Shown here: piece after piece, positions 11,612 to 14,829 of the stretch
How positions within the stretch are numbered: the first letter of the stretch is position 1
How the letters are laid out: each line of letters starts with the position of its first letter
From: an uncultured Bacteroidota bacterium
Lineage (GTDB): Bacteria > Bacteroidota > Bacteroidia > Bacteroidales > UBA12481
Length of the DNA stretch: 38,193 nucleotides
NCBI GenBank assembly: GCA_903919925.1
Contig: CAIXKO010000514.1
Coordinates: 1-38,193, forward strand
Direction: 5' to 3'
The notes under the pieces: generated by a model
What the model saw: only the letters and a program-made list of their open reading frames with translations
What the model was told of the DNA's origin: nothing
The model's database searches: none
Made by a program: the position numbers and the translations under genes

Positions 11612-12007
11612 CTATCTGCCGCCGCCGCCGCCACCACCGCGTTGACGGTTAGCGCGTTCTGCTGCTTGTTTGGCTAAGATGTCTTTGAATTTTTTTGCCT
11701 GATCAGGAGTCAGAATTTTTTCAATTTTTGCATCCCTGTCCTTATTAATCTCAGTCATTTTTGTGCGCATTGCTTCACGATCGTCACCAGCTGCATCGCG
11801 GGCAGCAGTCATCTTTTCACCAGCCTCTTTGTAAATAGCATCAAATTTGGTGTTTTGATCTTTGGTCAGCACCAGTTCCTTTTTGAGGTCATCAATTTGC
11901 TGCTGCCTTCTTTGCTGCATATTCTGCTGTGGTGGTTGATCCTGAGCATTAAGTCCCCCAACAAGAAAAAGACCTAAAACCATCGAAAGAAAAAGATTAC
12001 GTTTCAT
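11612..12007 (-). CDS. Spy/LTXXQ-like exported helical protein with glycine tail
   Basis: A 131-residue exported protein. A signal peptide (MKRNLFLSMVLGLFLVGGLNAQ) is followed by a charged, helix-prone body. Two motif-like segments, LVLTKDQNTKFDAIY and ILTPDQAKKFKDIL, resemble the paired LTxxQ-type repeats of Spy/CpxP periplasmic proteins, which bind unfolded proteins or sense envelope stress. The last residues are a run of seven glycines between arginines, giving a GGC/GGT-rich low-complexity end to the gene. It follows the sigma factor gene on the same strand but is separated by a strong terminator, so it likely has its own promoter or is reached by readthrough. The chaperone role is inferred from fold-type similarity only. 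Confidence 0.7.
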   Translation of the reverse strand: MKRNLFLSMVLGLFLVGGLNAQDQPPQQNMQQRRQQQIDDLKKELVLTKDQNTKFDAIYKEAGEKMTAARDAAGDDREAMRTKMTEINKDRDAKIEKILTPDQAKKFKDILAKQAAERANRQRGGGGGGGR

Positions 12008-12079
12008 AATAAATTGTTATTAATTTTCGGTTTTTAGACCACCCCATGCTTCAGAAGGTTTAAAGTTCGTCAAAAAAAA

Positions 12080-12098
12080 AGACCGGAAAAACCGGTCT
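12080..12098 (-). terminator. Intrinsic terminator after the sigma factor gene
   Basis: On the minus strand AGACCGG, a 5-base T loop and CCGGTCT form a perfect 7-base-pair stem followed by a run of nine T (12079-12071 on the plus strand read as A). It begins just after the sigma factor stop and before the Spy-like start at 12007. Confidence 0.88.
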
Positions 12099-12104
12099 AT
12101 CTTT

Positions 12105-12608
12105 CTAAACAAAATCTTTAAGCCGATCCATCAGCCTCTTACGAGCAAAAAATATCTTACTTTTAACCGACCCCAGGGGTTGATCAAGATGCTCTGCAAT
12201 CTCCTTGTACTTGTAACCTTTAGTGTGCATTTCAAATGGCAATCGATAATCCTGCGGAAGTTCACTGATTGCTATCCTGATTTCCTTCTCATTGTGAGTA
12301 GCTTCGGGTGATTGAAAAACTGATTCAGGCCGAAGATTAAGGTAATATGAATTTTCTGTTGAGTCAATGAGTGTATTTGACCTCACGTTTCGACGATAAT
12401 TATTAATGAACGTGTTTTTCATAATGGTAAATACCCACGCCTTTAGGTTCTTGTCACCTTGAAATTTATCCCGGTTCGTGAGTGCTTTATACAACGTTTC
12501 CTGAAGTAGATCCTTTGCATCCTCAGGGTCCGATGTCAGGCTTTTTGCAAAGAAACCAAGTTTTGGTTGCATGCCCATCAGCTGGTGGTTAAATTCAATT
12601 GCGGTCAT
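12105..12608 (-). CDS. ECF-type RNA polymerase sigma factor
   Basis: A 167-residue extracytoplasmic-function sigma factor. Region 2 lies near residues 8-75 (DPEDAKDLLQETLYKAL, then KAWVFTIMKNTFINNYRR), and region 4 is the C-terminal helix-turn-helix (ISELPQDYRLPFEM, YKEIAEHLDQPLGSVKSKI). Length is typical of a minimal ECF factor. No FecR-type or zinc-binding anti-sigma gene is adjacent: upstream is the MerR-like gene, downstream a terminator and the Spy-like gene. It has an AT-rich leader with a candidate promoter at 12651-12682. Control may therefore be transcriptional or by an unlinked partner. Confidence 0.93.
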   Translation of the reverse strand: MTAIEFNHQLMGMQPKLGFFAKSLTSDPEDAKDLLQETLYKALTNRDKFQGDKNLKAWVFTIMKNTFINNYRRNVRSNTLIDSTENSYYLNLRPESVFQSPEATHNEKEIRIAISELPQDYRLPFEMHTKGYKYKEIAEHLDQPLGSVKSKIFFARKRLMDRLKDFV

Positions 12609-12650
12609 ATGTTTTGGTTTTTGTTATACTTTTTATTAATGTTTCTTAGA

Positions 12651-12682
12651 CAAATGTAAGTCTTTCTTCAACACAAACCAAA
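12651..12682 (-). promoter_or_regulatory. Candidate promoter of the sigma factor gene
   Basis: On the minus strand TTTG (12682-12679) is followed after exactly 20 bases by TACATTTG (12658-12651), a full match to the Bacteroidota housekeeping -33/-7 pattern. The start codon is at 12608, leaving a short leader of about 35 bases. The rest of 12609-12852 is AT-rich and shows no gene. Confidence 0.6.
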
Positions 12683-12852
12683 TTTTGTTCAATCACAACT
12701 TAAACAAAGTAATACAAAAACATTGAATTCTAAACAACACATATTCATATAAACCTATAGTTGAATAAGTTATACAAATTTGTACAAATAAATTCTAAAT
12801 AAGAGCGATGCAGAAACGGGGAGGAGGAAGACTTTTGACTACCTGGCTGCGA

Positions 12853-13734
12853 TTAGAAAGAAATCGCTTGAATAAGAGACTGATAGGAGAATATTTTGAT
12901 TATCCCCGGTGGCAATTCAACCTGTACATCAAAACCAATAGCAACCATAAAAATTTTCTTTTCAGGAAAGATGCTGACCAGCTTCTCTGCATACGAATAC
13001 AATTCTTTATCCGTGTGCCCCTGGTTTACTGAAACAACAATATGGTCAATAATCTGTCGGTTTGAAAGTGATCTCAAATGTTCGACAGGGATGGAAGGAC
13101 CCAGATAAATAACCTGGTGCCCAACCTTACGCAGCAGGTAATTCGAATAAAGCAGATTGATCTCGTCATATTGCCCGGACGGGAGAAAAAGGAGATAATG
13201 CTCGTTTGTTGATTGATTGTGGCCAACCATTCCATCTATTGCCACAACAAGTTTGTGCCTGACTAAATTATTCACAAACCTTTCCTGGCAAGCGCTGATT
13301 TTCCCGATCTGCCATAACAAGCTAATCTTTTGAAGAAAGGGAAAAACCACTTGCATAAATGATTGTTCAAAACCTTGCTTAAGAATGGAGCCATTTAATA
13401 TCTTCTCAAAACGATCTTCATCCAGGTCGTGAGTCGATTTAATCAATTCTGAAAGGTAGCCGTCTTCTGCGCCCGGCTGTTCACAGATTCTGGAAACCTC
13501 GGTTTGAACTTCAGAATCATTCATTCCCGATATCAGCGAAATTTTGAAGCCATGCCTATTTAGGAATGAGATATTAAGCAATCGCTGTAAGTCGGCCAGA
13601 TTATAATACCTGATATTTGTATCGGTACGTTCCGGTGCAATAATCCCATAGCGCTTTTCCCAGATCCTTATGGTGTGAGCTTTAATACCCGTTAGCTTTT
13701 CCAGATCACTTATACTATATCTTGCTAAATTCAT
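12853..13734 (-). CDS. MerR-family regulator with degenerate B12-binding-like (CarH/LitR) domain
   Basis: A 293-residue transcription factor. Residues 1-70 are a MerR-type winged helix (YSISDLEKLTGIKAHTIRIW, RTDTNIRYYNLADL). Residues about 90-170 resemble the four-helix cap of CarH/LitR photoreceptors and about 178-290 the Rossmann B12-binding domain (VGHQVIYLGPSIP). The cap motif W-x9-EH is W141-x9-E151-R152, so the histidine is lost. The axial-ligand motif ExHxxG reads Q188-x-D190-x-x-N193 (GQYDEIN), so all three conserved residues are changed. The protein has therefore probably lost cobalamin-dependent light sensing while keeping the fold. It stands alone between the sigma factor and the YbhN-type gene; no carotenoid or photolyase genes are near. 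Family call firm, loss of cofactor inferred. Confidence 0.88.
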   Translation of the reverse strand: MNLARYSISDLEKLTGIKAHTIRIWEKRYGIIAPERTDTNIRYYNLADLQRLLNISFLNRHGFKISLISGMNDSEVQTEVSRICEQPGAEDGYLSELIKSTHDLDEDRFEKILNGSILKQGFEQSFMQVVFPFLQKISLLWQIGKISACQERFVNNLVRHKLVVAIDGMVGHNQSTNEHYLLFLPSGQYDEINLLYSNYLLRKVGHQVIYLGPSIPVEHLRSLSNRQIIDHIVVSVNQGHTDKELYSYAEKLVSIFPEKKIFMVAIGFDVQVELPPGIIKIFSYQSLIQAISF

Positions 13735-13815: not shown

Positions 13816-14829
13816 CTATTCTGTGGTAATGATCTTCTTTTTCTTGTTTACAATTGGCAAAACACCGAGAGCAACAGCGCCGATTAGTATGATAAAGAGC
13901 GTGGTTGAACCGTGGAGTACAAGTGTAACCAATTGTGCATCTGGTCTTGATACACTATACAAAAGCAGGGTATTCATAGCAAACCAGTGGAATGTGCCGA
14001 TACCTCCGGGAACAGGAAGCACCATACCAATGCTGCCCATTGCCAAAACCGATAGTGCAACCATCAGTGAAAGGTCGGCTGTTGGGGCAAAAGCCTTGAA
14101 AACACTCAGTGTACCCAGGTAATAACATCCGTAAATCGCAATAGTAAGCAAAACAAAGCCAACAGGATTTTTAAGGCGGAAAACTGATTTCAAACCTTCC
14201 GTAAATTTTCCGGCATAGGAAAGCATCTTTAAGATTGCCGGAAGCTTAAGGAGTTGTTTCCGGTATACATAGATAACAGCAAATGCCAAAAAGAACAAGC
14301 CGATTGCTAAAAGAAAAATGGGGGATTGTATAAAAGAGATCTTGCTGGTCATGGCCCCTTTATCGTGACTAATTAAACTTGACAGGATGTCCCAATTGAA
14401 AAGCAGAACCATTGACAGGAGAAATAATAAGAATATTACATCGACAATTCGTTCCACTAACACCGTACCCAATTGAGAGGTAAAGGGAACGCCTTCATAT
14501 CGTTTGAGGATTCCGCACCGGGTAACTTCGCCTAATCGGGGAAAAGCGTAATTCGCCAGGTACATAACGAGTATTGATAGAAAAGTGTTTAAAAGCCCAG
14601 GTTTATAGCCGATGGATTCGATCAGCATTCTCCAGCGCATCGCCCTGAATAGGTGGCTAAAGATCATTGCCACGAATGAAACGGCGATCCATCCGTAATG
14701 AAACCGGGCTAATCCGTCCCATATATCACCGAGGTTCTGTCCTTTGTAAACCCATATAAACAATAAAATACCCACACTGAAAAAGAACACGTACTTCAGT
14801 GTATCCAAAAGAAATTTATTTTTACTCAC
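13816..14829 (-). CDS. YbhN/UPF0104 family integral membrane protein (LPG-synthase TM-like)
   Basis: A 337-residue inner-membrane protein of the PF03706 family, which includes the membrane domain of lysylphosphatidylglycerol synthases and stand-alone YbhN proteins. About eight hydrophobic segments are visible. Family landmarks include FSHLFRAMRWRML, YLANYAFPRLGEVTRCGIL, GTVLVERIVDVIFLL and the late glycine/proline-rich VLPVPGGIGTFHWF. The soluble aminoacyl-transfer domain of MprF-type enzymes is absent, so lipid lysinylation should not be claimed; a lipid or glycan flipping role is only a guess. It follows the C69 dipeptidase by 14 bases and probably shares its transcript. Confidence 0.88.
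   Translation of the reverse strand: MSKNKFLLDTLKYVFFFSVGILLFIWVYKGQNLGDIWDGLARFHYGWIAVSFVAMIFSHLFRAMRWRMLIESIGYKPGLLNTFLSILVMYLANYAFPRLGEVTRCGILKRYEGVPFTSQLGTVLVERIVDVIFLLFLLSMVLLFNWDILSSLISHDKGAMTSKISFIQSPIFLLAIGLFFLAFAVIYVYRKQLLKLPAILKMLSYAGKFTEGLKSVFRLKNPVGFVLLTIAIYGCYYLGTLSVFKAFAPTADLSLMVALSVLAMGSIGMVLPVPGGIGTFHWFAMNTLLLYSVSRPDAQLVTLVLHGSTTLFIILIGAVALGVLPIVNKKKKIITTE

Follow-up and report, generated by a model that had tools for sequence, protein, structure and literature searches.

A CarH/LitR-like regulator without its cobalamin histidines beside an ECF sigma-factor gene in Bacteroidales

Introduction

The nearest known structures to the regulator analyzed here are those of CarH/LitR from T. 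thermophilus (5c8d and 3whp). The two share a MerR helix-turn-helix (HTH) joined to a four-helix bundle and a Rossmann domain, the Trp and Glu of a cap motif, and half-sites that overlap a promoter; unlike CarH/LitR, our protein has four residues replaced, namely the His of the cap and the Glu, His and Gly of the axial motif. In CarH, W131, E141, H142 and H177 are named as key AdoCbl residues (PMC11796333).

By analogy, CarA, AppA and HP1 are precedents for a B12-independent reading of such a protein. CarA of M. xanthus, a B12-independent CarH paralogue, is relieved by the CarS protein (PMC8156234) and represses a main-sigma promoter (PMC9304148, PMC8156234). Repression persists in CarA motif mutants, and CarA is able to bind B12 (PMC8156234). 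Our protein is likewise predicted to be a CarH relative working without B12 (PMC9304148 and PMC8156234 for CarA), but its residue pattern is the reverse: CarA lost the cap Trp and keeps Glu-His and the B12-binding motif (PMC9304148). The SCHIC domain of AppA, a B12-type fold that has given up cobalamin, binds haem through a His described as "shifted by two residues" relative to cobalamin domains (PMC9144470). AppA, a BLUF fusion, has PpsR and haem as binding partners; our protein has an HTH and Gln188. HP1 (Rru_A0625), a PpaA/AerR-like protein of Rhodospirillum rubrum, also descends from a B12 domain and is reported to have lost its cobalamin motif and kept function; it belongs to a different family and controls photosynthesis genes (PMC10734443). 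A literature search, mostly of papers outside subscription, found no report of CarH-like Bacteroidota regulators without cobalamin ligands.

Results and Discussion

The window, the whole 38,193-nucleotide stretch of DNA that was analyzed, encodes the regulator on its minus strand in a real ORF with an ATG start. The regulator and its domains are:

12853-13734, minus strand: MerR-type regulator, CarH/LitR-like, 293 amino acids, without cobalamin histidines (ORF, Pfam, HMMER, AlphaFold2, Foldseek)
13522-13719, minus strand: MerR HTH domain, residues 6-71 (MerR_1, 59.4 bits)
13225-13467, minus strand: four-helix-bundle half of the effector domain, approximately residues 90-170 (secondary structure and fold match)
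12859-13209, minus strand: Rossmann half of the effector domain, approximately residues 176-292 (secondary structure and fold match)

An earlier note, made from the letters alone, had called this protein CarH/LitR-like with an intact HTH and Rossmann core, a description that our analysis bore out. CarH was the best match by both sequence (HMMER; 3whp, E 8.3e-17; 5c8d, E 1e-16) and structure, and the HTH score lay well above the Pfam MerR_1 cut-off of 21.6 bits. The regulator fell under the cut-offs of both cobalamin-domain models (B12-binding_2, 18.3 bits, cut-off 23; B12-binding, 15 bits, cut-off 32.1) and scored 96.7 bits with the NCBIfam CarH equivalog model, whose cut-off is 400. An AlphaFold2 model, for which the window's sequence was combined with those of 65 of the 80 named loci (66 in all), had a mean pLDDT of 92.1 and contained the four-helix bundle and the Rossmann B12-type fold. 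Among the Foldseek matches listed, the top hit was CarH 5c8d (E 4.4e-15), with the effector domain superimposing on the CarH cobalamin domain at Z 18.1 and 2.4 Å over 194 residues; the AppA SCHIC domain (4heh) followed under the CarH matches (Z 14.6, 198 residues), and numerous unrelated B12-type domains also matched this fold.

The residues that hold cobalamin in CarH lie in two motifs:

13279-13314, minus strand: cap motif W141-x9-E151-R152 (W131-x9-E141-H142 in CarH), WQIGKISACQER, with family-specific Cys149 at 13288-13290 (HMMER alignment, census, DNA letters)
13156-13173, minus strand: degenerate axial motif Q188-Y-D190-E-I-N193, QYDEIN (E175-x-H177-x-x-G180 in CarH) (HMMER alignment, census, DNA letters)

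HMMER alignment to CarH, with no gaps within either motif, set W141 on the cap Trp, E151-R152 on the Glu-His pair, and Q188, D190 and N193 on the E, H and G of ExHxxG. The cap His (H142 in Thermus CarH) is thus R152, and E175, H177 and G180 are Q188, D190 and N193. Against the general pattern W-x9-EH, the cap has the Trp and Glu and lacks the His, and QYDEIN departs from the axial pattern E/D-x-H-x-x-G/P. The DNA letters and the alignment agree on the motifs as first read, W-x9-ER and QYDEIN at 188-193, and the alignment to Thermus CarH that had been proposed, together with the fold match, places the replaced residues on CarH ligand positions. Where the earlier note spoke of the loss of all cobalamin ligands, it went too far: the cap His, axial His, Glu partner and Gly are gone, and Trp141 and Glu151 remain. 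Judged by the residues named as key in CarH, the protein falls outside the CarH photoreceptors despite its CarH ancestry, and it probably acts as a repressor of similar type; B12 binding has probably been lost in its family.

We determined how far this loss reaches. A search of 60 related genomes at a homologue threshold of 1e-8 found the regulator in 27, and an order-wide search of 393 genomes gave a match in 143. Sequences from the matches listed were added to the 80 named loci; identical copies, sequences shorter than 150 amino acids, and L029, which a contig end cuts before the motifs, were excluded, giving 220 distinct sequences. Among the matches listed and named loci, 182 of these kept the W, E, H and axial H, 38 lacked at least one, and 26 lacked both histidines, so paired loss of the kind that the earlier note had suggested counting does recur. 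The Trp141 position was still W in 37 of the 38 non-intact sequences. With at least one of four key residues missing from 38 of 220 CarH-like proteins sampled, annotators should inspect these residues before transferring the B12-photoreceptor label.

Both histidines were absent from all eight sequences of the window's family that reach the motifs. Six of the eight genomes in the window's genus have the gene, all with R152 and D190 together; their cap reads CQERF and their axial motif [QH]YDEI[NQT]. The sister genus (two genomes) has an identical cap with Asn or Lys for the axial His, and a third genus is represented by the fragment L029, which ends ahead of the motifs. Because 182 of 220 relatives keep all four residues and 6/6 genus members share R152 and D190, the loss is beyond chance. 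On a quick tree built without the motif columns, the family formed a single branch (SH-aLRT 97) and ligand loss needed approximately 12 changes, a count made approximate by long branches; well-supported branches force four. Ligand loss is family-wide and recurrent rather than confined to one odd gene. One ligand-lost genome, G002, also carries a second regulator with full cobalamin motifs (L031; G002:C309, L124:3736-4614), with no ECF gene beside it within the stretch read. Tandem pairs of regulator copies occur in G126:C94 (L187, L243) and G224:C45 (L229, L247).

Three neighbors of the regulator recur with it:

12105-12608, minus strand: ECF sigma-factor gene, 167 amino acids, next gene downstream of the regulator, candidate target (Pfam, adjacency, whole-genome search)
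11612-12007, minus strand: small Spy/LTXXQ-like gene after the ECF gene, a weak family-level match (Pfam, gene order)
13816-14829, minus strand: flippase-like membrane protein (LPG_synthase_TM), conserved upstream neighbor (Pfam, gene order)

The ECF product matched Pfam Sigma70_r2 and r4_2 above cut-off; the Spy-like product was under Pfam cut-offs in the window, and its L007 orthologue was above the LTXXQ cut-off. The ECF gene lies directly downstream in the seven of eight family loci with room to see it, and at genus level its product is 84-92% identical versus 53-79% for the regulator. The order flippase-like gene, regulator, ECF gene, Spy-like gene recurs in L004, L005, L006 (where a contig end cuts the flippase gene), L007 and L008, making a mis-binned contig unlikely. 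More broadly, 64 of 80 named loci had an ECF-type gene close to the regulator, and among matches listed with more than 900 bases of room it was the next gene downstream in 128 of 164 loci with an intact regulator and in 15 of 37 with a ligand-lost one. Neither regulator nor ECF gene was found in G005 (99% complete) or G010 (81%). Two genomes count against the reading we prefer: G003 (67% complete), with an ECF gene and no regulator found, and G008, whose regulator is at a contig end and which had no ECF gene at 1e-35.

Upstream of the Spy-like gene, at approximately 12008-12104, conserved words TTTAAACC followed by GTCTAAA or similar were seen by eye in seven loci. These words could be an ECF-type promoter linking the sigma factor to the Spy-like gene.

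Pattern searches upstream of the ECF gene, with the letters checked, revealed a promoter-like sequence and half-sites spanning 12646-12709:

12651-12681, minus strand: promoter-like sequence of the ECF gene, TTG-N20-TACATTTG
12646-12655, minus strand: half-site-like ATTTGTCTAA, overlapping the -7 element
12683-12692, minus strand: half-site TTGAACAAAA (TTTTGTTCAA on the opposite strand), extending into the -33 element
12700-12709, minus strand: half-site CTTTGTTTAA

At 54 of 82 loci the region upstream of the ECF gene contained the word TTAAACAAA, versus approximately five in first-order shuffles. The commonest spacing of facing decamer pairs was 26 (18 cases); the pair in the window is spaced 17, which also counts against our preferred reading. 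TTG-N18-22-TANNTTTG, which we take to be the Bacteroidota-type promoter consensus, preceded the ECF gene in 79 of 129 intact loci (2.6 expected) and 10 of 15 ligand-lost loci (0.6 expected). A -7 element running into the half-site TTTGTNNAA (TANNTTTGTNNAA) was present in 53 of 129 intact loci (1.6 expected) and 9 of 15 ligand-lost loci (0.2 expected). The DNA side of the circuit therefore looks kept in ligand-lost loci, and we infer that the regulator binds the half-sites upstream of the ECF gene.

We scanned nine family genomes for the pattern TRAACAARATTTG, with the reversed pattern as control. The window's own genome had five matches (one for the control), and the sole place shared between genomes besides the ECF promoter was upstream of folE (Pfam GTP_cyclohydroI in L151) in G000, G005 and G006. 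We did not count folE as a regulon member, since no regulator was found in G005 at our search threshold and the promoter spacing is missing from the site. A half-site-like word, T[GA]AACAAAATTTG, lies between folE and the divergent gene (L153, L148, L151) at near the reversed-control level.

The regulator gene is under purifying selection. Whole-gene dN/dS was 0.057 for L003-L004 and 0.039 for L005-L006, rough values with dS of approximately 2 or more and close to saturation, and intact pairs gave 0.042 (L040-L049) and 0.055 (L048-L064); dS was saturated in the remaining pairs. This selection favors the same fold serving another signal over a relic. Several pocket residues are newly fixed. Cys149 occurs in 8/8 family sequences, in 0/182 intact relatives and, among the matches listed, in one unrelated ligand-lost sequence, and two further histidines have similar distributions:

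13078-13080, minus strand: His219, 8/8 family sequences, 0/182 intact relatives, one other ligand-lost sequence (census, DNA letters)
13255-13257, minus strand: His160, 6/6 genus members, 2/182 intact relatives, one other ligand-lost sequence (census, DNA letters)

The unrelated carriers of Cys149 and His219 are L267 and L277, with one residue each. Arg152, present in 8/8 family sequences, was also found in L160, L205 and L246; intact sequences have His there by definition. The pocket looks re-equipped rather than decayed. The earlier note mentioned neither these residues nor the strand of the gene, the ECF partner and its promoter half-sites.

Since the ligands are lost family-wide, yet the gene is kept by selection beside a sigma-factor gene, the regulator most likely senses something other than light. 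We tentatively favor, at a little under even confidence, a B12-independent repressor of the ECF-sigma gene, derived from a cobalamin photoreceptor and answering a different, non-light signal. The ancestor would have been a Bacteroidota CarH/LitR-type cobalamin photoreceptor beside an ECF sigma-factor gene, presumably repressing that gene. In the window's family the regulator would have become cobalamin-blind and would probably still bind half-sites overlapping the main-sigma promoter of the ECF gene, resulting in repression. Release may come from a non-light signal, perhaps redox or a small ligand, acting through the remodelled pocket (Cys149, Arg152, His219), and the freed sigma factor would turn on stress genes, possibly including the adjoining Spy-like gene. 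The repression, the signal and the regulon are all putative. Of the earlier suggestion that the same fold serves another signal or none, the kept fold and purifying selection support the first part; the signal itself is still a proposal.

A second reading is possible but somewhat unlikely: as in CarA, the effector domain would be a ligand-free dimerization scaffold, with repression relieved by an antirepressor partner or set by protein level. CarA itself, B12-independent and relieved by CarS (PMC8156234), provides the model, and the family keeps both the ECF partner and the half-sites. A pure scaffold, however, needs no newly fixed Cys149 and His219, and the CarA pattern of a lost cap Trp with Glu-His and motif kept was not the one found in the window protein.

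The earlier note had raised the case of another histidine in the axial place, and several relatives do have a His two residues earlier, where the window protein has Gln. Of 30 sequences that lack the axial His, 9 had this shifted His, versus 1 of the 190 that keep it; these counts come from related sequences and are not independent, so that a p value is unreliable. It occurs in four ligand-lost groups: the window's family (5/8; His188 in L033, L032, L007, L009 and L010), L026, L027, and L104/L209/L214. L214 has both the axial and the shifted His, and L004 and L008 share Gln188 with the window protein.

These histidines bear on a reading that we consider distinctly unlikely, in which haem or another tetrapyrrole has taken over from cobalamin as the ligand of the domain. 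The fold match to AppA SCHIC (Z 14.6, 198 residues) and the enrichment of the shifted His, which recalls the shifted haem ligand of AppA (PMC9144470), speak for it. However, Gln188 replaces this His in the window protein, L004 and L008, the fold is shared with numerous unrelated B12-type domains, the counts come from related sequences, and the AppA shift is known by description, not direction.

The regulators of Bacteroidales form a natural series that begins with intact photoreceptors, passes through L214 with its two histidines and ends in cobalamin-blind proteins. Across it the output, the ECF sigma gene and promoter half-sites, can stay constant as the sensor pocket is altered. Swapping a few pocket residues between close relatives would therefore make it testable how a light sensor gains a new signal or turns signal-free. 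A broader scenario, which we put forward as unlikely, is that CarH-type photoreceptors of this order repeatedly became cobalamin-free sensors by one route, losing the axial His and gaining a His two residues earlier, in convergence with the haem-binding SCHIC domain of AppA; L214 resembles an intermediate. The window's family would then have fixed Cys149, Arg152 and His219, with the window species losing the shifted His, to give a sensor of haem, metal or thiol by which the ECF-sigma gene is driven via the old operator.

We asked if cobalamin was still available in the family. Cob_adeno_trans was found in 12/12 family genomes and mutase-family genes in 10/12, the misses being G003 (67% complete) and G011 (62%). 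Since these genes are present, AdoCbl is not missing in the family, and we rejected B12 shortage as the cause of ligand loss. AdoCbl enzymes in the organism are also consistent with a reading, to us decidedly improbable, in which cobalamin is still bound by other contacts (Trp141, Glu151, the corrin edge), base-on or with another axial ligand, and light sensing may persist. Because Trp141 and Glu151 are kept, along with the fold, and W is nearly invariant in non-intact sequences, some binding without the histidines may occur, and CarA motif mutants repress and CarA can bind B12 (PMC8156234). Against this, none of the axial His, its Glu partner and the Gly has been retained, and 8/8 family sequences carry Arg where the cap His would be; these residues are called key for AdoCbl binding in CarH (PMC11796333).

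Clusters of light-protection genes lay near the regulator in the 80 named loci: photolyase (22), squalene/phytoene synthase (20), lycopene cyclase (11), a CrtI-like amino-oxidase-fold protein (19) and a NUDIX protein resembling isopentenyl-diphosphate isomerase (19). Clusters were named by Pfam on one representative each, and the CrtI and isomerase names are our interpretation; the one representative of a CrtZ-like cluster had no Pfam match. The window-family loci among the 80, L032 and L033, were in none of the light-protection clusters; L032 is short. Strong SQS_PSY matches (E <1e-30) were found in 2/7 ligand-lost family genomes at least 90% complete versus 13 of 16 intact-regulator genomes (of the 60 searched), and photolyase in 4/7 versus 8 of 16; two of the 16 are less than 90% complete, and G002, one of the seven, also has the intact L031. 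In ligand-lost genomes beyond the family, both genes are present in G039 and absent from G054. Loss of the light-protection program as the cause of ligand loss is a trend only and no rule, as other ligand-lost members keep photolyase.

PF03441 photolyase was absent from the window's own genome, G004 and G008, where SQS_PSY matched only weakly. These genomes may thus have lost a light-protection target of the ancestor, which could fit a decaying relic without function. This relic reading is very improbable: dN/dS of approximately 0.05 largely refutes it, and the open frames in eight family sequences and the conserved replacements also speak against it. The open frames and dN/dS likewise give no support to a pseudogene.

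Several light-related genes lie elsewhere in these genomes. L122:2136-8518 (G006:C534), in a ligand-lost genome and on a contig other than the regulator's, contains a phytoene-synthase-like gene and two desaturase-like genes. L121:215-1192 (G000:C487) encodes a distant squalene/phytoene-synthase-like protein (46 bits, far under the HpnC and HpnD cut-offs) whose relatives recur in the genus as frames of 310-332 amino acids. In the window's own genome, L125:1483-2547 (G000:C13; the same as L002) encodes a 354-amino-acid protein with intact W-x9-EH and ELHEMG, adjoining a histidine-kinase-like gene; its closest PDB entries are the photocobilin/cobalamin-binding photoreceptors 8j2w/8j2x (E 6e-19). 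This assembly may therefore keep B12 light sensing in another protein, mis-binning being possible. Full-length relatives of this protein were found in G042, G024 and G034; the other members of the window's genus had none, and G006 matched the B12 domain only.
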